This document shows, piece by piece, positions 1 through 11,871 of a DNA stretch of 64,000 nucleotides (its first letter is position 1; each line of letters begins with the position of its first letter). Both the position numbers and the translations under genes were made by a program. The notes beneath the pieces were generated by a model. That model searched no databases. It saw nothing but the letters and a program-made list of their open reading frames with translations, and was not told where the DNA came from. Source of the stretch: an uncultured Cohaesibacter sp. (GTDB taxonomy: Bacteria; Pseudomonadota; Alphaproteobacteria; Rhizobiales; Cohaesibacteraceae); assembly GCF_963667045.1 (NCBI RefSeq), contig NZ_OY762934.1:434001-498000 (forward strand), given 5' to 3'.

Positions 1-118
1 TTTCTGCTGCCGTTCCGATTTGCAATGTGAGCAACCCTTTCTGTTCCATTATCGACTTTGCTGCTTCCAATACGCGCTGTCTCGTTTCCACGCTTTTCGT
101 CGATTGTGTGCTTGCCAA
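1..118 (-). CDS. TetR-family transcriptional regulator, N-terminal part (cut by window edge)
   Basis: Only the first 39 codons are in the window. Read on the minus strand from a TTG start at 118 they give ETRQRVLEAAKSIMEQKG followed by LLTLQIGTAAE, which is the first two helices of a TetR-type HTH domain. The TTG is preceded by GAAGG at a spacing of six bases, and no ATG lies in frame. The gene is divergent from the six-gene operon at 351-6694 and shares a short intergenic region with it that contains a perfect inverted repeat. It is therefore the likely local repressor of that operon; this is inference from layout. The ligand-binding domain lies outside the window, so the effector cannot be guessed. 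Confidence 0.75.
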   Translation of the reverse strand, partial: MASTQSTKSVETRQRVLEAAKSIMEQKGLLTLQIGTAAE

Positions 119-137
119 GCATAGCCTTCACAGAAAA

Positions 138-350: not shown

Positions 351-1328
351 TTGAGATTTCTTGGGACAGGAAGAGCGCTACCCCAACACGCCCTGACATC
401 GATTGAGCTGGACCGAATTCACGGACTTCAGGATGGCTATCTCGAAAGCGTATGCGGGGTTTCGCGACGCTATTTCTGTGAAGCGGAAAGCCAGATAGAC
501 CTGGCCGTCATGGCTTCGCTCGCGGCACTTGAAGAAGCAGGCCTTTCTCCGGGCGATATCGATGTGATCATCAGTGCAGCCGCTGTTCCCTATCAGCCAA
601 TTCCGGCCACCGCTCCTGCCATTCAGTTGGCGCTTGGCATTGAAGACGGCGCCTGTTTCGCGACGGACATCAACAGCACATGCCTTGGGTTTCCAGTGGC
701 CCTGCATTTCGCGAACGGGTTGCTCATGGGCGCGCCAAACCAGAAAATACTGATTGTCTCTTCAGAGATTGCGTCGCGTGGTCTGCCGTGGGAAACGCAG
801 CCTGATGTCGCCGGACTGTTTGGTGATGGTGCCGGCGCTGCCATCATCACTGGCTCGGAACAGTCAAGTCTCATCGCGTCTCACTTCGTGACACTGCCCT
901 CTGCCTATGAAGCCTGCACAATAGGCGCAGGCGGAACACGGTTCGACTTTGACAAGGAAAAGGAGCTCTTTGCCACCCATTCCAAATTTTCCATGGACGG
1001 AAAAGAGCTCTATCGCGTGACGGCCAAACGGTTTGCCCCGTTCGTTGACACACTGCTGGACCGGGGGAACATGAAACTTGCGGATATCGATCACATCCTA
1101 CCCCATCAGGCAAGTCCCGCCGGGCTCGCCCACATGATCCGGCTCTGCAGAATGCAGCCGGAGAAGGTGAGCAATATTGCTGCCGAACATGGCAACCAGA
1201 TCGCGGCATCCCTGCCCTTCGTGCTGGACCATGCCCGCAAGAATGGTACGATTGGCAAAGGCTCACGCGTTATGATGTTGGGCACATCGGCAGGAGTTTC
1301 CTTTGGTGGCCTGATCCTGGAGCTGTGA
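351..1328 (+). CDS. KAS III (FabH/OleA-like) beta-ketoacyl-ACP synthase
   Basis: Condensing enzyme of the thiolase fold, 325 aa from the TTG at 351. GGAG lies nine bases upstream of this TTG. An earlier in-frame start at 195 would add 52 residues of non-homologous sequence. The expected triad is visible: Cys111 in DINSTCLGF, His252 in PHQASP and Asn282 in HGNQIAAS. The length is normal for FabH. Family members join an acyl-CoA or acyl-ACP to malonyl-ACP, or to a second acyl chain in OleA. The gene heads an operon with an SDR, an MBL hydrolase, an adenylating enzyme, a BtaA-like transferase and a GNAT. A specialised role is therefore more likely than housekeeping fatty acid initiation; the substrate is unknown. 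Confidence 0.85.
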   Translation: MRFLGTGRALPQHALTSIELDRIHGLQDGYLESVCGVSRRYFCEAESQIDLAVMASLAALEEAGLSPGDIDVIISAAAVPYQPIPATAPAIQLALGIEDGACFATDINSTCLGFPVALHFANGLLMGAPNQKILIVSSEIASRGLPWETQPDVAGLFGDGAGAAIITGSEQSSLIASHFVTLPSAYEACTIGAGGTRFDFDKEKELFATHSKFSMDGKELYRVTAKRFAPFVDTLLDRGNMKLADIDHILPHQASPAGLAHMIRLCRMQPEKVSNIAAEHGNQIAASLPFVLDHARKNGTIGKGSRVMMLGTSAGVSFGGLILEL

Positions 1329-1330
1329 AT

Positions 1331-2323
1331 ATGGGACAGATTCTGATTACCGGAGCGACGGGTTTTCTTGGCGGGTGTCTGGTCCGGCGATTGCACAGCG
1401 AAGGCCACCACGTTGTTGCCACAGGCCGCAACAGGGCAAAGCTCAATACCCTGCCGTTACCTGAGCACCAGTTGCTTTGCCTTGACCTCTGTGCAATTAC
1501 GCCGCCCCATCTGGCAGACCTGCTGGGAGATGTGGAGGCCATTGTTCATTGCGCAGCCCTCTCGACCCCGTGGGGGGCGGACGCCGCATTCAGGGCCGCC
1601 AATGTAACCGCGACCGAAAAGCTGATCGACCTTGGCCGTATCCTGCAGATCCGCCATTTTGTTCATGTCTCCACGCCAGCTGTCTATTTCCGCTTCGAAG
1701 ATCAACGGAATGTTCCGGAAAATCTACCCTTGCCAAAACCGGTCAACAATTACGCCCGCACAAAGGCCATAGCGGAAGAGCGGGTCGCGGAAAGCGGGCT
1801 TCCGTTCACCATCATCAGGCCACGTGGCATCTATGGTGTGGGAGAGACGGCGTTGCTGCCGCGATTGCTGCGTGCGGCCAAAGCAGGACCATTGCCTCGT
1901 TTTCGCAATGGGGTGGCCGAGACCGACATCACCCATGTCGATGATGTGGTCGATGCCCTTTGCTGCATTCTCCAGAAACGTGATCTGGCTCAGGGAAAGG
2001 TCTTCAACATCTCTGGCGGTCAGCCGCTGCGCATTCATGAGATCGTCGAAAAGGTCGCTGCCCGCAAAGCTATCGCCGTTTCATGGCGGGACCTGCCGGT
2101 CGCGCCAGTGCTGGCAGCCATCCGCGCAGGCGAGTGGTTGGCAAGGCTGCGCCCCGGAAGCCCGGAGCCGCGCATAACCACCTATAGCCTCGGGATCTTT
2201 GCCTACACACAGACACTGGACCTCACCCGCGCTCAAAACTGTCTGGGCTGGCGACCGAGGATCACTTTCGAGGAAGGGCTGGCTCGGACGTTCTCCCATA
2301 GCGATGGAAGTCTTCTATCATGA
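1331..2323 (+). CDS. Extended SDR: NAD(P)-dependent epimerase/dehydratase or 3-beta-HSD-like reductase
   Basis: 330 aa from the ATG at 1331, which has GGAG eight bases upstream; a GTG at 1325 overlapping the previous stop is the alternative. The N-terminus carries the nucleotide-binding glycine motif GATGFLG at about residues 8-14. The active site YxxxK is present in NYARTKAIAEE, and IIRPRGIYG matches the substrate side of extended SDRs. The closest recognisable group is the NSDHL/3-beta-hydroxysteroid dehydrogenase branch. That branch includes OleD, which reduces the beta-keto acid made by the thiolase OleA. Next to a KAS III-like gene, reduction of a beta-ketoacyl product is the natural guess. 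It overlaps the next gene by ATGA, so translation is probably coupled. Confidence 0.85.
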   Translation: MGQILITGATGFLGGCLVRRLHSEGHHVVATGRNRAKLNTLPLPEHQLLCLDLCAITPPHLADLLGDVEAIVHCAALSTPWGADAAFRAANVTATEKLIDLGRILQIRHFVHVSTPAVYFRFEDQRNVPENLPLPKPVNNYARTKAIAEERVAESGLPFTIIRPRGIYGVGETALLPRLLRAAKAGPLPRFRNGVAETDITHVDDVVDALCCILQKRDLAQGKVFNISGGQPLRIHEIVEKVAARKAIAVSWRDLPVAPVLAAIRAGEWLARLRPGSPEPRITTYSLGIFAYTQTLDLTRAQNCLGWRPRITFEEGLARTFSHSDGSLLS

Positions 2324-3171
2324 TCAGGGGGCCCTTCTTTTTCTCAACCTCCACCCTTCCTGTACCCGAGCGCCTGGTGTTGAAGGGAGGATCGCGACAC
2401 AGGGTGCCCTTGCAGGTGCGCGTTGGATATTTCCACCATCCGCTTCTTGGGCATACGCTGATTGATACCGGTTACAGCGCTCGGCTCGCACGCAAGGAGA
2501 CGGGTGGAGACTGGCTGCTCGCAGCCTATTGCCGCTTGCTCAATCCCACTACGCTCAGCCCAGATCCACTTGGTGACGGGCTTGCCCGGCTAGGAATCGG
2601 CAAACGGGATATCGAGACTGTCATTCTCACCCATTTTCATGTCGATCATATCAGCGGACTTGCGAACCTTCCTGCCTGTCGCATTCTCAGTTCGGAAAAG
2701 GCATGGAAGGACTGCCACTCAACGGGACGCCTAAAGAATGCCATGCACGGCGTTTTCCCTTCCCTGCTCCCGACGGATTTCGAGGACCGCCTGCAGTTGT
2801 TCGAGCAGATGCCAACACCTGACGGGATCGCAACCGAGGCCCCGCACAATCTTGGACCGGCGCTTGACATAACCGGTGACGGGTCCGTGCTCATCGTTGA
2901 CCTGCCCGGTCACCTCGGCGGCCATGTCGGGGTCTGCTTCCCTCTTCTGCCACGGCCCCTGCTCTATGCAACAGATGCACAATGGATGCTGGACGCCATC
3001 CTGCAGGACAGGGTTCCGGGCTTTCCAGCTAGTCTGGTGGCGCACAATTCCGAGGCAGCTGCGGAGAGCACCCGGCGTATCCGTTCCTTTGCAGAAGCGG
3101 GTGGTGAAGTCATGCTATGCCATGAGCCACGCCCATATAGCCATGATATCGAAGGGAGCGCTCCTGCATGA
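2320..3171 (+). CDS. Metallo-beta-lactamase-fold hydrolase
   Basis: 283 aa. The zinc-binding signature THFHVDH is at residues 104-110. Later metal ligands follow in order: the His in DLPGHLGGHVG, the Asp in YATDAQWM and a C-terminal His in LCHEP. This is the order seen in lactonase and glyoxalase-II-like members of the fold. The start overlaps the SDR stop by ATGA, and the stop overlaps the next start by four bases, so the gene sits firmly inside the operon. It could hydrolyse a thioester or lactone in the pathway. The family is too broad to choose between thioesterase, lactonase and phosphodiesterase activity from sequence. Confidence 0.85.
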   Translation: MIRGPFFFSTSTLPVPERLVLKGGSRHRVPLQVRVGYFHHPLLGHTLIDTGYSARLARKETGGDWLLAAYCRLLNPTTLSPDPLGDGLARLGIGKRDIETVILTHFHVDHISGLANLPACRILSSEKAWKDCHSTGRLKNAMHGVFPSLLPTDFEDRLQLFEQMPTPDGIATEAPHNLGPALDITGDGSVLIVDLPGHLGGHVGVCFPLLPRPLLYATDAQWMLDAILQDRVPGFPASLVAHNSEAAAESTRRIRSFAEAGGEVMLCHEPRPYSHDIEGSAPA

Positions 3172-4451
3172 CTTCCGCCCTCGGTACCGCCCTCGCAAGC
3201 TACATCCGTATCCGGCTGTTTCCCTACCGCTTCCGCAACCGCATCACCCTTGTTAATTGGCAACAGAAGAAGCTTGCGCGTTGGCTTGAACGGGACGTGC
3301 CGCGAGTACCCGCCTTTGCCCACCTTGCAGGCCAGCATGTAACGCTTGATCAGCTTCCCATCATGGACAAATCCATCCTTATGGCCGATTTCTCTCGCTA
3401 CAACCTGCCAGCTATCAGCAACGAGCAGGGCTGGGAAGCCTTTGCCGGAGACAGGCAGATCGGTGACCATATTGTCGGGGCCAGCACAGGGACAAGCGGC
3501 AACCGCGGGCTTTTCGTCATCTCCCAAGCCGAGCGGTTTGCGTGGCTCGGTGCCATGCTGGCCAAGGCTGTTCCTGATTTCTGGCGGCATCGGGACAGGG
3601 TTGCGATCCTGCTGCCGATTGATACTCCACTCTATGACAGCGCCAATCGAACAGGTCGGCTCAAGCTGAAGTTCTTCGACATATCCAATCCTTTGTCGAG
3701 CTTGTCGGCAGAGCTTCAGGCCTTCGACCCTACCCTGCTGGTTGCCCCGCCTCGTATCCTGCGCCAACTATGCGCAATGGACCTGTCCCTCAGACCGAGG
3801 AAGATCTTTTCCGGCGCAGAGAAGCTTGAACAGGCCGACCGGGCCATCATCGAGACTCGTTTTGGCCAACCGCTGGGTGAAATCTACATGGCAACGGAAG
3901 GGCTTCTTGCGGTCTCCTGTTCGCATGGACATCTGCATCTGGCCGAAGATTGCCTGCATTTCGACTTCGAGGACGCCGGGAATGGTCTGGTCTCCCCCAT
4001 TCTTTCAGATTTCAATCGCTTAACGCAGATCATGGCCCGCTACAGGCTAAATGATCTGCTGAGGCTTGATCCCAGCCCCTGCTCGTGCGGCTCGCCTCTC
4101 ATGGTGATTTCCGAGATTGTCGGCAGGAAGGATGATATTTTCAGCTTTGTCCGTCCCGGCGGACAGATCGTCGAGTTGACACCGGACATTCTGCGCAATG
4201 TCGTCGTTGATAGCAGCCGAAGCATTGACGATTTTCGCCTGCTCCAGACCGATCCGACCTTAATGGAACTGCAGTTGCCCGCCCATCTCGCAGAGCCGAT
4301 CAGGCAACGGGCTCGAGCTGCCCTTGGCACTCTTTTGGCACGGTTCGGGCTAGACGGTGTGGTTCAGGTTGCGTTGGCACCGCTACAGCCACACGAGAGG
4401 GGCAAACTGCGTCGTGTTTGCTGCATGTGGAAACCGCCGACGAGCCATTAA
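3168..4451 (+). CDS. Adenylate-forming enzyme, F390-synthetase/PaaK-like
   Basis: 427 aa, the usual length for PaaK-type adenylating enzymes. The phosphate-binding loop ASTGTSGNRG is at about residues 105-114. IYMATEGLL corresponds to the motif that follows the adenine pocket, and the region around YRLNDLLRLD to the hinge before the C-terminal lid. Members activate a carboxylate as an acyl-AMP and pass it to a thiol or amine. Proteins of this clade are commonly annotated F390 synthetase-related, without known substrates. Cys residues in PCSCGSP near position 305 resemble the cysteine cluster of PaaK relatives. The overlap with the MBL gene indicates coupled translation. The role is presumably activation of the acid made upstream. 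Confidence 0.8.
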   Translation: MTSALGTALASYIRIRLFPYRFRNRITLVNWQQKKLARWLERDVPRVPAFAHLAGQHVTLDQLPIMDKSILMADFSRYNLPAISNEQGWEAFAGDRQIGDHIVGASTGTSGNRGLFVISQAERFAWLGAMLAKAVPDFWRHRDRVAILLPIDTPLYDSANRTGRLKLKFFDISNPLSSLSAELQAFDPTLLVAPPRILRQLCAMDLSLRPRKIFSGAEKLEQADRAIIETRFGQPLGEIYMATEGLLAVSCSHGHLHLAEDCLHFDFEDAGNGLVSPILSDFNRLTQIMARYRLNDLLRLDPSPCSCGSPLMVISEIVGRKDDIFSFVRPGGQIVELTPDILRNVVVDSSRSIDDFRLLQTDPTLMELQLPAHLAEPIRQRARAALGTLLARFGLDGVVQVALAPLQPHERGKLRRVCCMWKPPTSH

Positions 4452-4509
4452 ATTGTTCGCCAATAAATAATTGCACCCGCCATACCCTAAGACGATTGGG
4501 AGATACCTC

Positions 4510-5598
4510 TTGGATTTCTTTCAGAATCTAAACTTTTCATCCGCCAATGAAGATGGTGAGAGCGAGCTCATAGCCCTCTTAAAAGCCAGTCGCATCCTGT
4601 GTCTGACAGGATCGGGAACCCGGCCGCTCGATATGCTGATGTCCGACGCCCAGGACGTCATCGCGCTCGATCTCAATCCGGCGCAAAACGCGCTGCTGAC
4701 CCTCAAGGTCGCGGCGTTTCAGCAGTTGGAGCATGGCGAGTTGCTGGCCTTTCTTGGCCTCTCCCCCATAAAGGATCGTGCAAGAACCTACGATCTGCTG
4801 CGCGCGCACCTTCCATCCGACGCGCGCGCCTATTGGGACAGGCATCTCAAGGTCATAAAGGCCGGTGTCTGGCATCAGGGAAAGTGGGAGAAACTGCTGG
4901 CCTGGAATGCTCGTTTCCTCAAGCTCTACCGCCGAGGAGCGATTGACGCACTGATGGAGGCCCCCGACCTTGAGGCGCAGGAGGCGATCTGGCAACAGAA
5001 ATTTGCCAACAGCCGCCTACGGGCCTTGCTGGAGATGATCGGACGCGACTGGATCTGGCGCTGGGTGATGAATGAACCGGCTGGCGAGTTCCTGCCAAAC
5101 CCGGCTGAAGTCAGCCGACGGCTTGAGGTTGACTTTGCGCGTGCATCTGCCTCTTTCCTGTTTCGCGACAGCGACTTTGCCACGCTGATTTTCCGCGGCC
5201 ACCATTCTGCTGTCGGCGCCTTGCCTGTTCATCTGCGCGAAGAGAATTTTCAGCGCATGCGGGACCATTTGCCGAAACTACGCATTATCGAAGGCGGACT
5301 GGCCGATCTTGCTGGCGAACGGCATGGAGAAATGGATACGGGTGCTGTCGACGGTTTTTCCCTGTCCGATTTCGGCTCCTATTGCGGCCCGGACGTCTAT
5401 GCAGCCTGCTGGCGCGGTGTTCTGGCGGTATCTGCTCCGCATGCCTCCTACTGCGAGCGGATCTTCATGAACGACATGCCTGTGCCCTTTGCTTCCATCC
5501 ATGTTGATCAAGCCCTATCCGATCAACTCACAGCAAAGGACAAGGCGATCATCTATCGTATCCGGGCAGGCTATATGGAAAAGGCTACCGATGGCTGA
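4510..5598 (+). CDS. DUF3419 / BtaA-like S-adenosylmethionine:3-amino-3-carboxypropyl transferase
   Basis: 362 aa from the TTG at 4510, which has GGGAG seven bases upstream; an in-frame TTG at 4471 would give 375 aa but has no visible ribosome site. The SAM-binding core reads CLTGSGTRPLDML followed by VIALDLNPAQNALLTLK, as in BtaA. BtaA moves the 3-amino-3-carboxypropyl group of SAM to diacylglycerol on the way to betaine lipid. No BtaB methyltransferase is present here. The acceptor is therefore probably not diacylglycerol but the product of the upstream condensing and reducing enzymes; this is inference. Its stop lies inside the first codons of the next gene. Confidence 0.75.
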   Translation: MDFFQNLNFSSANEDGESELIALLKASRILCLTGSGTRPLDMLMSDAQDVIALDLNPAQNALLTLKVAAFQQLEHGELLAFLGLSPIKDRARTYDLLRAHLPSDARAYWDRHLKVIKAGVWHQGKWEKLLAWNARFLKLYRRGAIDALMEAPDLEAQEAIWQQKFANSRLRALLEMIGRDWIWRWVMNEPAGEFLPNPAEVSRRLEVDFARASASFLFRDSDFATLIFRGHHSAVGALPVHLREENFQRMRDHLPKLRIIEGGLADLAGERHGEMDTGAVDGFSLSDFGSYCGPDVYAACWRGVLAVSAPHASYCERIFMNDMPVPFASIHVDQALSDQLTAKDKAIIYRIRAGYMEKATDG

Positions 5599-6694
5599 TA
5601 AAGCAACACCCCGCAATCAGATTGCCCGGAACTATGTAGCTTCGTTCAACAGGTATGGGTCGAGGCATTTCATCGGCAATCTGGAGACCTGCGTTGACCT
5701 CATGGATTGGGGAGACCACCAGTTGCCAATCACCATCAACGATGGTGCGCCTGCCAGAACCTTTGTCTGCTCGCCCAAGGTTGGCTATTTTGATTATGTG
5801 AAGGAGGAACTGCACCACTTTCCCAGTCGTCTCCTGACCCCGCCCCTTCGATTGCTCGTTTCTGCCGTCGAGTTTCTGCTCTCCGGCTCGGACATGGACA
5901 GGGTTGTTCATGTCAACAACTGGATGATGTCTACCAACCTTCCCGTGGCCATCGACGCGTCCCTTGTTCGGCAACGGACAAACTATCTCATCTCCCGATT
6001 TCCAACCCATCTGCTTGCCATGCGGTCTCTTACGCATGCCTATCATGAGGACTTGATGGCAAAACTGGAACAGGCCGGTTGGGTCTTTCTCCCCAGTCGT
6101 CAGATCTATCTTGTTGACGACATTGCGCATCAACTGGCCAGCAGGCGCGATGGAATACGCGATGAGGTCCTTTGGGGCAAGACAAGCTATCAATATGAAG
6201 AGCTTGGACAGCTCTCTGCTGCTGACGCCCAACGCATCGCCGAGCTTTATGCCATGCTGTATCTGGAGAAATATTCCCAGCTCAACCCCGCATTTTCGCC
6301 AGACTTCATCACGCTCACACACCAGATCGGCCTGATCCGCTATCTGGTATTCCGAGATTCTTCGGGCGTCATACAAAGCTTTGGCGGAATGATGCATATG
6401 GGCCAATATGGAACCATGCCGATGGTCGGATACAATACCGCCCTCGACCAGAAGCTCGGTCTATTTCGTCTGGCCTTTCATGCCGGCAGCCGCTATGCAG
6501 CCCGCCATGATCTCCGGTTCAACATGTCCTCAGGGGCAACCGCCTTCAAACGAGCCCGCGGCGGCAAGCCAGAGATGGAATATACCGCCTTTTACAATCG
6601 CCATTTACCTGCGTCCCATCGGATACCTTTCAAGCTTCTGGGCTTCGTTGCAAACAGGATCGGCGTTCCCCTGCTTGAACGCTATCAGCTTTGA
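5591..6694 (+). CDS. GNAT-fold N-acyltransferase (FemAB/BioF2-like)
   Basis: 367 aa from the ATG at 5591, which overlaps the preceding stop and has AAAAGG just upstream; the longer reading frame from 5489 runs inside the previous gene. The C-terminal half has the layout of large GNAT acyltransferases: a helix-rich core with QLSAADAQRIAELY, then RYLVFRDSSGVIQSFGGMMH, and a conserved final part with FNMSSGATAFKRARG. Such enzymes transfer acyl or aminoacyl groups to amines. After a 3-amino-3-carboxypropyl transferase, the free amine of the transferred group would be an obvious acceptor; that is inference. It is the last gene of the operon, 24 bases before a strong hairpin. Confidence 0.7.
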   Translation: MADKATPRNQIARNYVASFNRYGSRHFIGNLETCVDLMDWGDHQLPITINDGAPARTFVCSPKVGYFDYVKEELHHFPSRLLTPPLRLLVSAVEFLLSGSDMDRVVHVNNWMMSTNLPVAIDASLVRQRTNYLISRFPTHLLAMRSLTHAYHEDLMAKLEQAGWVFLPSRQIYLVDDIAHQLASRRDGIRDEVLWGKTSYQYEELGQLSAADAQRIAELYAMLYLEKYSQLNPAFSPDFITLTHQIGLIRYLVFRDSSGVIQSFGGMMHMGQYGTMPMVGYNTALDQKLGLFRLAFHAGSRYAARHDLRFNMSSGATAFKRARGGKPEMEYTAFYNRHLPASHRIPFKLLGFVANRIGVPLLERYQL

Positions 6695-6718
6695 CTAATT
6701 TGCTTGAACCGAATAGCA

Positions 6719-6753
6719 AAAACCCTCGCAATTCAGTGAATTGCGAGGGTTTT
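6719..6753. terminator. Bidirectional hairpin terminator
   Basis: A perfect 16-base stem (AAAACCCTCGCAATTC, loop AGT) with A and T runs on its two sides follows the GNAT gene. It lies immediately outside the island boundary. Before integration it would also have been the terminator of the convergent tRNA-Glu gene. Confidence 0.85.
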
Positions 6754-6762
6754 GGTAAAGAT

Positions 6763-6779
6763 TGGTACGCCCTACGGGA
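6763..6779. repeat. Left attachment site (tRNA-Glu 3' fragment)
   Basis: Seventeen bases identical to the last seventeen of tRNA-Glu (39643-39659), in direct orientation, with no tRNA body attached. The identity stops at 6780, where G replaces C. It marks the left end of the island. Confidence 0.85.
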
Positions 6780-7062: not shown

Positions 7063-7416
7063 ATGAAGAACCTTTGCATAAACATGCGCTCGACAATCAG
7101 TGTTAGAAACTTTTCCGAAGGAATGATCTCTTGTAAAGAAATAACCGCCGAACAGGTGGCAAGCTTCATCGCATCGGCCCGTCGAGATAACGCAAAGATA
7201 ATGGGCCTATATGATTTCGGCACGGAAATCACTGATCAAAACTGTCAAGATTTGCAAGATCTGCTAGTGGCATTTGAAACTGTTACCGGCACATATCTCT
7301 CAGAGGACGCGTTTTTTGAAGAACCGGATGAAGATGGCGATGCGTTTCCAATCGTCGATTGCATATCTATGGTCAATGAAACATGCAGTTCCAAAACTTT
7401 ATTGATTTCTTCTTGA
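7063..7416 (+). CDS. Hypothetical protein, 117 aa
   Basis: I do not recognise the family. The ATG at 7063 has GGAG seven bases upstream, which is good support for translation. The product has no signal peptide or membrane segment. The C-terminal third is acidic (EEPDEDGDAFPIV), and the middle predicts helices. A minus-strand frame at 7245-7589 overlaps its 3' half and also reads plausibly as helical protein, so the strand assignment of that half is not certain. It is the first gene inside the island, 280 bases from the left attachment site. Confidence 0.45.
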   Translation: MKNLCINMRSTISVRNFSEGMISCKEITAEQVASFIASARRDNAKIMGLYDFGTEITDQNCQDLQDLLVAFETVTGTYLSEDAFFEEPDEDGDAFPIVDCISMVNETCSSKTLLISS

Positions 7417-7528: not shown

Positions 7529-7848
7529 ATGGCGGAACTCGGAATTTCCGGCAAGGTCGATGTCGTTGTTTAGGGTCCGAGCTTCCCAAAGGGAAGCCGC
7601 ACCCTCTTCCCTATCTGATGACAGTGCGCGCGCTTGGGCTTGAACCGCATAATGTTTGTGTCTTCGAAGTTTCCTTGCCCGGAGCAAGGTCAGCCCATGC
7701 AACAGGCCTCACCGTTTTTGCCATAGGAGAAGGATGCTCACAAGCAGAGTTCAACTTCTGTGCGGCAACAGCCGAAACTTATGAAACCTTACTGGCGCCG
7801 TTTGAGAGCCCCAATGCCGACGGAAAGGAGAGAATAGAACACGGTTAA
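7529..7848 (+). pseudogene. Remnant of a HAD-family hydrolase, frameshifted
   Basis: From the ATG at 7529 the sequence reads AELGISGKVDVVV and then meets a TAG at about 7571. In the next frame it continues as GSELPKGKPHPLPYL, then VCVFEVSLPGARSAHATGL and TVFAIGE. This is motif III (the GKP lysine) and a degraded motif IV of subfamily I HAD phosphatases, where VFEDS is expected. One missing base near 7571 joins the two halves into a normal HAD C-terminal half. The N-terminal half with the DxD nucleophile is absent. The 3' end runs into the end of the convergent permease gene. Confidence 0.55.
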
Positions 7849-8898
7849 ACCAAGTAGGGTATAAACCGTGGGCAACACATCCTGATAATCAGCCCCCATC
7901 TGGTTGACCTGCACAATCGCCGTGATCGCTGTTGTGGAAGGGAAAAGAAGAGACAGGGCATGAATGACCGGCGGGATCTCTTCAAACGGCCAGGACACGC
8001 CAGACAAGAAGAATAGCGGCATCCCCAGAACGACCAGAAAGAAAAGAATGCCTTCCCGCCATGGAATGAGACGCGTGATAACATAACCCAGCGCGCATGT
8101 GGCCGTAAGGAAAGGAAGCGCCACGAGAAACAGAGTGTGCGTCTCTCCGATTTTCGGGATATGATAGAGCCGCGGCAACATCTCTTGCGAAAAGAAGATC
8201 AGCACCAGATAGAGTGTGATATAGGCCACCGGTTCGGCCAGCATTTCCGCTCCACGGCGGTTTCTCCGCCCTGACTGCAAAATCCCGATACCCATCAGCA
8301 GCGTTTGCTGCAATATCAGCACAAAGGCCGCCGGAACCACATAGCTATTATAGCCCCCTTCGGGGTTGAACAGAGTGACGGATGTAATGTTGATTGGTGA
8401 AATCAGGGAGGTAGCGCTGGTGGCGTCTGTTCCAGCCGCCGTCAATCGCGCAAATTGCACCTCGGTGCCCATAGTGGATGCTGCATCCCTTACCGCGCTG
8501 ACGATTGCACTGTAAATGATGAAATAACTGGCATCTCCATAGGCCGCAATCGGCGAGGGATGACCGCCTAGCAAAGTCTGCTCGAACTGGGGCGGAATGA
8601 TCACGATTCCATAGGCCTCTCGTTTGTAGAACAGATCTTTTGCGGCGTGCATATCATGTACGGTGGCAGCAATGCGCACACCATCGGTATTGGCAATACG
8701 GCGCAACAGGGCACGGCTGGAAGTTGACCCGTCCTGATCAACAGCCACGATGGGAGCTTTTCTGACAACCTCTCCCAAATAGGGCTGAGGATAGAGTGCT
8801 GCGTAAAGGAACGTTGCCAGCACCATGGTCGAAAAAGCGCTCCAGCTTGAAAAAATGGAGGCAAACGCGCCCACATATCGACGAAGAAAGAGCTTCAT
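7789..8898 (-). CDS. ABC-2-type permease, distal gene of an efflux operon
   Basis: 369 aa from the ATG at 8898, with AGGAG just upstream inside the previous gene; the longer frame to 9006 overlaps that gene in a different frame. One N-terminal membrane helix (AFSTMVLATFLYAALYP) is followed by an extracytoplasmic domain of about 140 residues, then five or so C-terminal helices. This is the layout of ABC-2 exporter permeases of the YhhJ/YbhR type. Its start overlaps the stop of the first permease by ATGA. Together with the HlyD-like adaptor it should form an inner-membrane exporter for a hydrophobic compound. No ATP-binding gene is beside it. Confidence 0.8.
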   Translation of the reverse strand: MKLFLRRYVGAFASIFSSWSAFSTMVLATFLYAALYPQPYLGEVVRKAPIVAVDQDGSTSSRALLRRIANTDGVRIAATVHDMHAAKDLFYKREAYGIVIIPPQFEQTLLGGHPSPIAAYGDASYFIIYSAIVSAVRDAASTMGTEVQFARLTAAGTDATSATSLISPINITSVTLFNPEGGYNSYVVPAAFVLILQQTLLMGIGILQSGRRNRRGAEMLAEPVAYITLYLVLIFFSQEMLPRLYHIPKIGETHTLFLVALPFLTATCALGYVITRLIPWREGILFFLVVLGMPLFFLSGVSWPFEEIPPVIHALSLLFPSTTAITAIVQVNQMGADYQDVLPTVYTLLGLTVFYSLLSVGIGALKRRQ

Positions 8899-10100
8899 GC
8901 CATTTCTCCTTGTGCCTGAGCTGTCTTTTTCGACGTCTTGTAGGCATCTGCCCGAAGGAGGACGACCAGCAACAGCAGCCATCCGACCATCGTCGCCAAT
9001 GCCCAATAGAATTCCGGTAGTGAATAATGGATTGGCGTGCCGCGCAAAACCTGATCCGTGCGCAATTCCAGATAGGACGTCAGCGGGATCATATCACCCC
9101 ACCAGCGCGCAAACTGGTTCATCATGATGCGGGGATAACTCACTCCGGCAAACCCGAATGCAGGCGCGGTCAGGACGCCGACAAATCCCAGTGTTGCAGC
9201 CGTATCCCGGCTCAACAAAGCCCCGCATGCGCCCAAGAACTGGCTCGCAAGAATGAAAATGGCTCCATAGACGAAGTGGAACGCGATATTTCCATGAAAC
9301 GATCCGTCAAATCCACCGAAAATAATCGCATCCGTCAGCATCAGCATCATGCTCCAGATGATCGTATAGGGCAGAAGTTTTCCCGCGATTACCCGAAACG
9401 CAGAACCGCCAAGGCGCATGGCGCGTGGCATGCCCGCTGCTGTGTGATGATCCCTTGAAAAGGAAAGAGCAGCACTCACGCTCACAAAGATCTGCAAAAT
9501 TGCAGGCATGATTGCTGCAAGCAAAAATTGAATATAGTTGAGAGTCGGATTGAAAAGCGGATTGATCTGAAGCGGAATAGGCTGCGCTGCGGCCGTAGCA
9601 CTGTCCCGATCGGCCCCTCGAGCCATACGGGTTTGGATACTGACCCCGACATTGAAGGTGCTAAGAGCACTCGCGATTGCCCGGTGCGTGATGCTGCCTG
9701 TCGTATAGAGCTGATTGTTGATGAACATCACCAAATTAGGCCGATGACCCAGCTGCAAATCCCGCTCCATATTTTTCGGAATATAAAGCACGGCATAAGC
9801 CTTGCGGGAAACGAGGGCCCTCTTGGCTTCGCTCAAAGAGGCCAAATGTAGCTTCACATCGACATCCGGCGTTGCATCCACCATGCGGGTGACTTGATGA
9901 GACATCATCGTGCCATCAAGATCCACCACACCAACCGGCAGTCCGGTTGGCAAGCCGGAATGGAAAACCATCGCCAGCGTGATAAACAGGATCAGGGGAA
10001 ATGGCAACAGCATGAATATAAACGCCGGTCGCGCTGCGATCTGGCGCAACTCTCGCCGAAAGATGCGACGAAACCCTGGAGGAAGAGGACCATTGAGCAT
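8895..10100 (-). CDS. ABC-2-type permease, proximal gene of an efflux operon
   Basis: 401 aa. The same architecture as its neighbour: an N-terminal helix (FIFMLLPFPLILFITLAMVF), a large extracytoplasmic domain starting VGVVDLDGTMMS, and a C-terminal bundle of about five helices. The VVDLDG and VAVDQDG starts of the outer domains in the two proteins suggest they are diverged paralogues working as a heterodimer. The gene starts four bases after the HlyD stop. The pair resembles the YhiI-RbbA-YhhJ and YbhGFSR exporters, except that an ATPase is missing. Confidence 0.8.
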   Translation of the reverse strand: MLNGPLPPGFRRIFRRELRQIAARPAFIFMLLPFPLILFITLAMVFHSGLPTGLPVGVVDLDGTMMSHQVTRMVDATPDVDVKLHLASLSEAKRALVSRKAYAVLYIPKNMERDLQLGHRPNLVMFINNQLYTTGSITHRAIASALSTFNVGVSIQTRMARGADRDSATAAAQPIPLQINPLFNPTLNYIQFLLAAIMPAILQIFVSVSAALSFSRDHHTAAGMPRAMRLGGSAFRVIAGKLLPYTIIWSMMLMLTDAIIFGGFDGSFHGNIAFHFVYGAIFILASQFLGACGALLSRDTAATLGFVGVLTAPAFGFAGVSYPRIMMNQFARWWGDMIPLTSYLELRTDQVLRGTPIHYSLPEFYWALATMVGWLLLLVVLLRADAYKTSKKTAQAQGEMA

Positions 10101-10103
10101 CAG

Positions 10104-11096
10104 TTATAGGCCCAATTTGTCTTCAGTGCCCCACTTGAGCAAGGCACTCATGCCGGGCCGGAGATCCTTGTCCTGTGTGACAGGCTCTGCGCGAATGGAA
10201 AAGGTTCTGAGATCAAAATCACCCGTTGCTTTGGTGGCACGCCAGTTGGCGTAGCTTCCTTCCACATTGATGGCAGTAATCTTGGCGGGAACAACCCTGC
10301 CCCCCAGCGCCGGCACATGCACGTTCAACTGCTGGCCGATGGTCAGGCCGTTCAAAAGATCCTCGCGCAAATTGAATGTGAACCAGAGATGGTCCACATC
10401 AATCATTGAAATCTGCGGAGCCCCTGCGGCAAAAAACTTGCCCTTTTCTGCCATGCGGGCCGTAATTTGACCATCCATCGGAGCATAAATCGTCAGCTCG
10501 GCAATATTGGTCTCGATCTGCCCTACGGCTGCTTCCGCCTGCTCGACTTGCGCCACGGAAACCGCTTTTTGCTCTTCGCTAGCGCCCTGAATGGCCAGTT
10601 CAAGCTGGGCCTCGGCGGCCTTGCGCGCCTCTCTTGCCTGTTGCAAGGACTGGGCAGCCTGATCCAGCCGTTGAACCGAAACCGTATCGGTTTCTCTCAG
10701 CTTGGCCAAACGCTCGTAGGTCTTGGAGGCCAGATCGAAAGCGGCATCAGCCTGTCCGAGCGTCGCACGCGCAGCATCAATGGTCTCGGGTCGCGTTGAA
10801 AATGTCAGCCGTTTATTCGCCTTCGCAACATCGAGAGCCGCTTTTGCGCTCGCCAGACTGGCCTTGAGCTGGGGGCTCGACAGTTCGACAAGAACTTGCC
10901 CCACGGTTACCCGATCGCCGAAATTGACAGGAGTGTCGGAAACGCGCGCAGAAACCTCCGCCGCAAGGTCGATGCGCGTTGCGTCTACTTCGCCCTGAAC
11001 AAGCAAAGCTTCCGTCCGAGTTGCTGACCAGGTGGTATAGGCACCGACCAAGAGGAACAGGAGAATAACGAGCCAGAAAGCTTTTCTTTTCAACAT
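10104..11096 (-). CDS. HlyD-family membrane fusion protein (efflux adaptor)
   Basis: 330 aa. A single N-terminal membrane anchor (AFWLVILLFLLVGAYTTW) is followed by the split lipoyl half VSARVSDTPVNFGDRVTVGQVLVEL. Next come a long coiled-coil hairpin rich in Ala, Glu and Gln (about residues 75-185), the second lipoyl half (IYAPMDGQITARMAEKG) and the beta-barrel. This is a periplasmic adaptor of a tripartite exporter. It is the first gene of a three-gene minus-strand operon with two ABC-2 permeases and is divergent from a TetR-type regulator. No outer-membrane TolC-type gene is linked. Confidence 0.88.
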   Translation of the reverse strand: MLKRKAFWLVILLFLLVGAYTTWSATRTEALLVQGEVDATRIDLAAEVSARVSDTPVNFGDRVTVGQVLVELSSPQLKASLASAKAALDVAKANKRLTFSTRPETIDAARATLGQADAAFDLASKTYERLAKLRETDTVSVQRLDQAAQSLQQAREARKAAEAQLELAIQGASEEQKAVSVAQVEQAEAAVGQIETNIAELTIYAPMDGQITARMAEKGKFFAAGAPQISMIDVDHLWFTFNLREDLLNGLTIGQQLNVHVPALGGRVVPAKITAINVEGSYANWRATKATGDFDLRTFSIRAEPVTQDKDLRPGMSALLKWGTEDKLGL

Positions 11097-11184: not shown

Positions 11185-11871
11185 ATGTCAATGGCAGAAG
11201 ACATAAAAGCAACCGGTAAGAGCAATCGGCGTCCACCGGGTAGACCTCCGACCCACAAGGACGGCGAGCTTCAGAAAAGGCTGATCGATATCGCTGGTGA
11301 AGAGTTTCTGGCGTCTGGCTATGAACATACGCGAGTCCAGATCGTCGCAGAAAAAGCGGGCATTTCGACACGCACATTCTATAAGTTCATCCCTAACAAG
11401 GCCGAGCTGTTTCGCATGGTTGCCGAGGAATGGTTGCAGCGGGAGCTCCAGCGCTTCGATCAGGTGCCCACAACAGATGGCGATGGTTCGAGTCAACTCG
11501 AAGGCCTGATTCTGTTCTATTCAAGGCTGCTGATGAGCCCGAACTACAGGCGAACGGCTTATATCATGATCACGGAAATGAAGAATTTCCCTGAAATCCT
11601 GAAAGAGCAGCAAAAAGTGTCTGAATGCTTTTATCAAGCGTTTGACAATCGCATTATCCAACTCTGTGAAAGTGGAAAGATCGACTGTCCGGCCCCTGCT
11701 CTCGCGGCAGAAATGCTCAGAACCATGATCAGCGGTTTGCAGCGTCAAATCGTGTTCGGCGGCCGAACAAAAGACATGTCTGACGATGAACTGATTGAAT
11801 GGTCAAAGAATTGTGCCGCTCTCTTCCTGAACGGCTGTGGCTCGGGCTCATCTTTTCACCGGCGGCGATAA
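11185..11871 (+). CDS. TetR/AcrR-family regulator of the efflux operon
   Basis: 228 aa from the ATG at 11185; a second ATG two codons later is equally possible. After a basic N-terminal extension (NRRPPGRPPTHKDG), the HTH is clear: FLASGYEHTRVQIVAEKAGI then STRTFYKFIPNKAELF. The remainder is the helical ligand domain. It is divergent from the HlyD/permease operon with 88 bases between them, the standard arrangement of a local efflux repressor. The last residues (GSGSSFHRRR) run into sequence that reads in another frame as a HIT-protein fragment, so the original C-terminus may have been replaced by a deletion junction. Confidence 0.85.
   Translation: MSMAEDIKATGKSNRRPPGRPPTHKDGELQKRLIDIAGEEFLASGYEHTRVQIVAEKAGISTRTFYKFIPNKAELFRMVAEEWLQRELQRFDQVPTTDGDGSSQLEGLILFYSRLLMSPNYRRTAYIMITEMKNFPEILKEQQKVSECFYQAFDNRIIQLCESGKIDCPAPALAAEMLRTMISGLQRQIVFGGRTKDMSDDELIEWSKNCAALFLNGCGSGSSFHRRR

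Follow-up and report, generated by a model that had tools for sequence, protein, structure and literature searches.

An operon in an uncultured Cohaesibacter that joins a conserved four-gene core to a divergent DUF3419 protein: a possible pathway to a fatty-acid-derived amino lipid or signal

Introduction

What would a bacterium make with an operon that places enzymes of fatty-acid condensation and reduction beside a relative of the betaine lipid enzyme BtaA? This question is raised by a 64,000-nucleotide stretch of the genome of an uncultured Cohaesibacter sp. (NZ_OY762934.1, positions 434,001 to 498,000; hereafter the window), in which six genes (351..6694) encode a beta-ketoacyl synthase III (KAS), an extended short-chain dehydrogenase/reductase (SDR), a metallo-beta-lactamase-fold hydrolase (MBL), an adenylate-forming enzyme related to F390 synthetase (LIG), a protein of the DUF3419 family, to which BtaA belongs, and a GNAT-like protein (P6). 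The six genes are an intact operon, and the first four are a conserved core that is used with varying tailoring genes, a feature that the original prediction for this locus had overlooked. We tentatively propose, with a probability of about 0.4, that the operon specifies an uncharacterised pathway to a fatty-acid-derived amino lipid or signal.

Conservation of the operon and its four-gene core

All six predicted open reading frames (ORFs) are present at their expected positions on the plus strand, with zero internal stops. The same six genes occur in identical order in seven other loci, at 49-65% identity: Shinella oryzae (two strains), Rhizobium sp. NIBRBAC000502774, R. rhododendri, Allorhizobium taibaishanense, and metagenome-assembled genomes (MAGs) of Marivivens and Ahrensia. 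Because the order is shared with these seven loci, the gene set is not a chance assembly, and both the co-occurrence of the six families and their reading as a single operon, as originally put forward, are upheld. The DUF3419 protein matched six of 72,556 plasmid records, four of them closely (59-62% identity), and large plasmids carry four of these relatives; a scan of GTDB genomes revealed three further loci, a lower bound since it ran on two short peptide patterns.

Within the class, close DUF3419 matches are rare: matches at E<=1e-20 were found in three of 385 genomes, that in the source genome being the only close one and the other two being weak (1e-22). No close match was found in any of 17 congeners. 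Five of these encode distant DUF3419 proteins (21-26% identity) that form a separate clade, and a methyltransferase gene adjoins the DUF3419 gene in both loci scanned among the five (L004 and L008).

The core genes KAS, SDR, MBL and LIG are contiguous and in that order in the window operon. All four were identified in 31 of 36 compared loci, which had been selected by matches to DUF3419, P6 or LIG and span Alpha-, Beta- and Gammaproteobacteria, Bacilli and Fusobacterium; the core was incomplete in L024, L033 and L063 (fetched for P6) and in L037 and L038. A search of 398 genomes of the phylum with TIGR02304, the family model matched by LIG, gave 14 matches at E<=1e-20 (seven above the cut-off), and KAS, SDR, MBL and LIG were found together around all ten matches with E<1e-40, the four weaker matches being left out of the neighbourhood comparison. 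In L059 the SDR was recovered as two tblastn pieces. LIG also matched 61 plasmid records, and 18 of the 20 loci fetched from the best 25 hold the four core genes, with Pseudomonas amygdali (L037) and Pseudomonas sp. Leaf58 (L038) lacking the full core; the five of these 25 rows (H19-H43) not among the fetched loci were those of four Ketogulonicigenium vulgare records (H28-H31) and one E. coli record (H35). In Fusobacterium vincentii (L068) the order is SDR, MBL, LIG and KAS, with KAS last.

A seven-gene version in E. coli was matched at the DNA level in 672 of 5426 complete genomes; the match covered at least 80% in 671 of these. In one representative (L035; NZ_CP141085.1, 4182-11063) this relative of the core lies between narI and purU together with PAP2, fatty-acid hydroxylase and desaturase genes, and its fatty-acid hydroxylase weakly resembles the ornithine-lipid hydroxylase OlsE.

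For each of the four core enzymes, both the enzyme class and the catalytic residues are supported. KAS, SDR and MBL score above the Pfam cut-offs for ACP_syn_III, Epimerase and Lactamase_B, respectively. The best model for KAS is NF005541/PRK07204 at 266.5 bits, yet below its cut-off of 402 (relatives from E. coli and Paenibacillus score 333.4 and 424.9 bits), with 176.2 bits against the FabH model. Alignment to solved KAS III structures places Cys111, His252 and Asn282 as a FabH-type KAS III triad, and these residues, the SDR Tyr143 and Lys147, and the HxHxDH motif of MBL are all kept in the aligned columns of 24 of 24 loci. LIG scores 272.7 bits against TIGR02304, over the curated cut-off of 251.9, and its motifs GTSG, YxxTEG, CxCG and GRxDD and a C-terminal Lys are unchanged across all 16 aligned members. 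A literature search, which left most subscription literature uncovered, found no published description or characterised product of such an operon. A remark on F390 synthetase in a paper on ladderanes (PMC2649909) concerns another gene setting and was not used.

Exchange of DUF3419 and ATP-grasp genes

The tailoring genes that accompany the core fall into recurrent sets. Among the 31 core loci, P6 is combined with DUF3419 in eight and with an ATP-grasp gene in eight, while four have ATP-grasp without P6; a further five combine PAP2, fatty-acid hydroxylase and desaturase genes, three have a divergent TetR gene and a sulfotransferase gene, and three show no listed partner in the stretch (one of these at a contig end). 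For DUF3419 loci other than that in the window, ATP-grasp genes were sought within the fetched stretches. Across 19 P6 loci, DUF3419 is the partner in eight and ATP-grasp in ten, with both in none and neither in one (L024). Two of the ten P6 and ATP-grasp loci are from Deinococcus plasmids (L033, 7835-10083; L063, 6820-9077), whose fetched stretches pair a sequence homologue of ATP-grasp (35-39% identity) with the GNAT-like gene and show no fatty-acid core. The Paraburkholderia operon has its ATP-grasp gene exactly where the window operon has DUF3419. The source genome of the window has zero ATP-grasp homologues at E<=0.001; the same query detects them in three other genomes but not in G717, whose P6 is an orphan.

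Trees of the four core proteins (24 loci, FastTree; L061-L068 left out) place the eight DUF3419 loci in one clade, with support of 1.0, 0.998, 0.912 and 0.998, and of 1.0 in the concatenation. On all four trees the sister group comprises operons that combine P6, Rieske and ATP-grasp genes (L025, L026, L029 and L030), with joint support of 0.991-1.0. Because the DUF3419 loci form a single clade in every core tree, DUF3419 probably replaced ATP-grasp once. The Marivivens MAG locus has DUF3419 plus a Rieske gene behind P6.

The core operons with a divergent TetR gene and a sulfotransferase gene are on Ketogulonicigenium and Paracoccus plasmids (L034, L064 and L065). Another locus, L062 (NZ_CP084753.1), comes from a record named Roseateles and flagged UNVERIFIED_ORG; since the operon there shares 69-79% identity with genes of the Rhizobium/Shinella type, the name may be wrong.

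The DUF3419 and P6 proteins

The DUF3419 protein scores 142.5 bits against Pfam PF11899 (cut-off 28.2). Its AlphaFold2 (AF2) model has the fold of class I S-adenosylmethionine (SAM) enzymes at moderate quality (predicted local distance difference test, pLDDT, 57.4; predicted template modelling score, pTM, 0.59; better blocks 57-92). Foldseek gave zero matches for the model at E<=0.001, the VIA-align rows being a re-examination of Foldseek's own list, and a profile search of solved structures gave none up to E 1. In an alignment of seven operon and eight other DUF3419 proteins, 21 positions are invariant, including E27, D28, G49, D67, P70 and D300 (numbered from 4471). The SAM-enzyme fold of the model and the 21 family-wide positions are consistent with the SAM-binding capacity that the original prediction required of this protein.

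The operon proteins are 19-28% identical to DUF3419 proteins outside the operon and form a separate clade, and the congener motifs YAQIWED and SGGCN are replaced by FSSANED and GSGTR. On these alignments the operon DUF3419 proteins are a distinct subfamily, and their chemistry may be other than that of BtaA. Their closest relative outside the operon is encoded on a Roseinatronobacter plasmid (L012, 523-8507), in a stretch with genes for a UbiA prenyltransferase, a phosphoenolpyruvate (PEP)/pyruvate-binding protein, the DUF3419 protein, two hypothetical proteins and an AMP-binding protein.

The P6 protein of the window has zero Pfam or NCBIfam hits of its own. Among 15 aligned members, PF13480 (Acetyltransf_6) is matched by seven (best E 1.5e-6), with the window copy unmatched, and an NCBIfam search of the 15 gave none below 0.029; FK..RG is conserved in P6 proteins. 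The best solved-structure profile match of P6, to a photosystem II 12 kDa protein (about 57 residues, E 5.8e-4; 1.2e-3), was taken as chance.

Proposed pathway and alternatives

An amino-acid-like head can come from a DUF3419 enzyme as well as from an ATP-grasp enzyme, and amines can be acylated by a GNAT with a thioester of the kind that LIG could make. We infer the substrates, step order, acceptor and product of the pathway from the enzyme classes and the DUF3419/ATP-grasp swap. KAS would form a 3-oxoacyl chain, which the MBL protein would free as the acid and the OleD-like SDR would reduce to a 3-hydroxy acid; the PaaK-like TIGR02304 enzyme would then convert this acid to an acyl-AMP and on to a thioester. 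The DUF3419 protein would transfer a 3-amino-3-carboxypropyl group from SAM to an acceptor, as BtaA does with SAM in the reaction given in PMC10491745, and P6 would N-acylate the new amino group. In the sister operons, the head would be an amino acid added by the ATP-grasp enzyme. This scheme predicts an N-acylated aminocarboxypropyl lipid rather than a betaine lipid; the product first suggested, a homoserine-ether lipid or signal, is possible. The reaction chain of the original prediction is sustained in its enzyme classes and is one of several plausible chains; the prediction missed the four-gene core and the ATP-grasp swap.

With the same degree of doubt, the operon may exemplify a modular class of fatty-acid metabolites, in which a core of KAS III, OleD-like SDR, MBL and TIGR02304 enzymes found across several phyla is combined with exchangeable heads; here a divergent DUF3419 protein would do the work of an amino-acid ligase of the ATP-grasp type, so that the product would be a homoserine-type N-acylated lipid or signal and the BtaA superfamily would have a function that is not betaine-related. 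If so, a fatty-acid metabolite pathway would span several phyla and include about one-eighth of complete E. coli genomes, the BtaA superfamily would gain a role beyond betaine lipids, and the products of the sister operons would have the same acyl part but different head groups.

Several points weigh against this proposal. No acyl carrier protein gene is among the operon genes. The operon DUF3419 proteins differ from the family at positions fixed within each group, and the activity of BtaA is the sole one that we know of for DUF3419. The window P6 is without a family hit, and its AF2 model (pLDDT 41.8) was discarded. The mutual exclusion of DUF3419 and ATP-grasp is one evolutionary event rather than 19 independent cases, and LIG and ATP-grasp could both activate carboxylates. 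The substrates, products and activities of all members are predictions.

An Ole-like beta-lactone pathway would be a different route, which we consider unlikely: KAS would act as OleA and SDR as OleD, the TIGR02304 enzyme would close a beta-lactone like OleC, MBL would open or edit it, and DUF3419 and the GNAT-like protein would decorate the product. OleD is the best NCBIfam model for SDR (148.7 bits), and the adjacent KAS, SDR and adenylating enzyme resemble oleACD clusters that lack oleB, a type interpreted in PMC7064751 as beta-lactone clusters. However, the SDR score is far under the OleD equivalog cut-off of 580, and the adenylating enzyme falls in TIGR02304, with likeness to OleC not seen. 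KAS prefers PRK07204 and FabH over PRK09258 (83.6 bits; cut-off 285), which we take to hold the OleA proteins, and the structures that we likewise take to be OleA rank low among its structure matches. OleABCD is not known to include a counterpart of the MBL protein.

The DUF3419 step itself could be otherwise, and the protein could be another SAM enzyme, such as a methyltransferase, that tailors a fatty product. The fold neighbours of the moderate model are mostly ordinary methyltransferases, and the low identity to DUF3419 proteins outside the operon is accompanied by fixed differences near the SAM motif. This is improbable, however, given that the protein matches the DUF3419 profile and that the gene it replaced is an ATP-grasp, a family whose enzymes attach building blocks and not methyl groups.

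It is still less probable that the operon makes an acyl-homoserine-like signal, in which DUF3419 and P6 would produce an N-acyl homoserine derivative to be trimmed or recycled by a lactonase-related MBL. The nearest named models of MBL are acyl-homoserine-lactone and pyridoxolactone lactonases, and the combination of a SAM-derived aminocarboxypropyl group with N-acylation recalls the logic of acyl-homoserine lactone synthesis. However, these matches are weak, with 51.1 bits against the AttM lactonase model (NCBIfam cut-off 390), and MBL belongs to the core even where neither DUF3419 nor P6 was found in the stretch (as in E. coli and Ketogulonicigenium), so that it is unlikely to be dedicated to such a product.

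Ordinary betaine lipid synthesis by BtaA and BtaB, to which the membership of BtaA in the DUF3419 family would point, is very unlikely, in line with the original prediction, and was rejected, since the six genes include no methyltransferase gene and hence no BtaB (BtaB elsewhere in the source genome was not searched for), the close DUF3419 homologues sit in the same fatty-acid operon, and the operon proteins form a clade apart from the congener proteins, whose genes have a methyltransferase neighbour in both loci scanned.

Operon boundaries and genomic setting

Table 1. Features of the operon and its edges, in window coordinates
Feature	Coordinates	Strand	Family or basis
KAS III	351..1328	+	FabH/PRK07204-like beta-ketoacyl synthase; Pfam ACP_syn_III and ACP_syn_III_C
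Extended SDR	1325..2323	+	Pfam Epimerase; best NCBIfam model OleD (2-alkyl-3-oxoalkanoate reductase), under its cut-off
MBL-fold hydrolase	2320..3171	+	Pfam Lactamase_B; HxHxDH kept
LIG, F390-synthetase-related adenylate-forming enzyme, PaaK-like	3168..4451	+	TIGR02304
DUF3419 protein, divergent subfamily	4510..5598	+	Pfam PF11899; probable TTG start
P6, GNAT-like (Acetyltransf_6) putative N-acyltransferase	5591..6694	+	label from relatives
Perfect 17-bp inverted repeat with A and T ends	6719..6753	.	probable operon terminator
TetR-like fragment, probable gene remnant	1..127, on to about -25 outside the window, then stop	-	coordinates

The tight packing noted in the original prediction holds for four of the five junctions, with overlaps of 4 nt at KAS/SDR, SDR/MBL and MBL/LIG and of 8 nt between DUF3419 and P6; the junction from LIG to DUF3419 is the sole one with a gap (58 nt if the start is at 4510). 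The DUF3419 gene probably starts at this TTG rather than at 4471 as first given, because a Rhizobium homologue, as annotated, begins opposite residue 14 of the 4471 frame and GGGAG stands 7 nt upstream of the TTG (by eye). The transcription unit probably ends at the strong hairpin of 6719-6753, because this perfect 17-bp repeat comes after the P6 stop; folding of 6710-6765 gave -25.6 kcal/mol (z -7.4), and the repeat was absent from the output of a consensus terminator scan. Control by a TetR gene over the operon, also part of the original prediction, was rejected: an intact frame is absent upstream, where there is only a 51-codon stretch between stops with a likeness to TetR judged by eye, and a Pfam search of this fragment gave no hit.

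On the left, similarity to congeners stops at window position -313 (G017 and G003, the G003 contig ending about 200 bases on), and on the right it resumes at 7388 (G014) or 7835 (G011). Because congener similarity breaks on either side, the operon seems to be part of an island that is strain-specific with respect to the compared congeners; insertion is likely, with inexact ends. None of the four congeners compared shows both flanks of an empty site, and a search of 9.3 kb showed no pair of repeats bracketing the island. The pathway was probably acquired horizontally.

At the edge of the island, a 117-aa ORF (7063-7416) is without a Pfam hit. Beyond it, two ABC-2 permeases and an HlyD fusion protein are encoded on the minus strand (7789-11096), with their own divergent TetR gene (11185-11871, plus strand); the HlyD protein is strongly matched in four of the 17 congeners.

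Comparison with known systems

The nearest relatives of the window operon share its core. The E. coli TIGR02304 operon has the same core in the same order, and its LIG scores 755.5 bits against TIGR02304; unlike the window operon, it also has genes for PAP2, a fatty-acid hydroxylase and a desaturase, and its stretch holds neither P6 nor DUF3419. The P6, Rieske and ATP-grasp operons (Rhizobium sp. BT03, Shinella zoogloeoides and two more genomes; also R. anhuiense, L061) have both the core and P6 in common with the window, whereas ATP-grasp and Rieske genes, neither of which is near the window operon, take the place of DUF3419.

More distant systems share single elements or a proposed logic. 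OleABCD and oleACD have a KAS, an OleD-like SDR and an adenylating enzyme in common with the window; however, their KAS and ligase belong to other subfamilies, and MBL and the extra head genes are present only in the window. BtaA-BtaB shares the DUF3419 family and the SAM-enzyme fold, whereas the window protein is of a divergent subfamily and has no methyltransferase partner and other neighbours. OlsB and OlsF make ornithine lipids by N-acylating an amino acid with a 3-hydroxyacyl chain; the likeness of the window operon to this synthesis lies in the proposed logic, and the head would here be derived from SAM.

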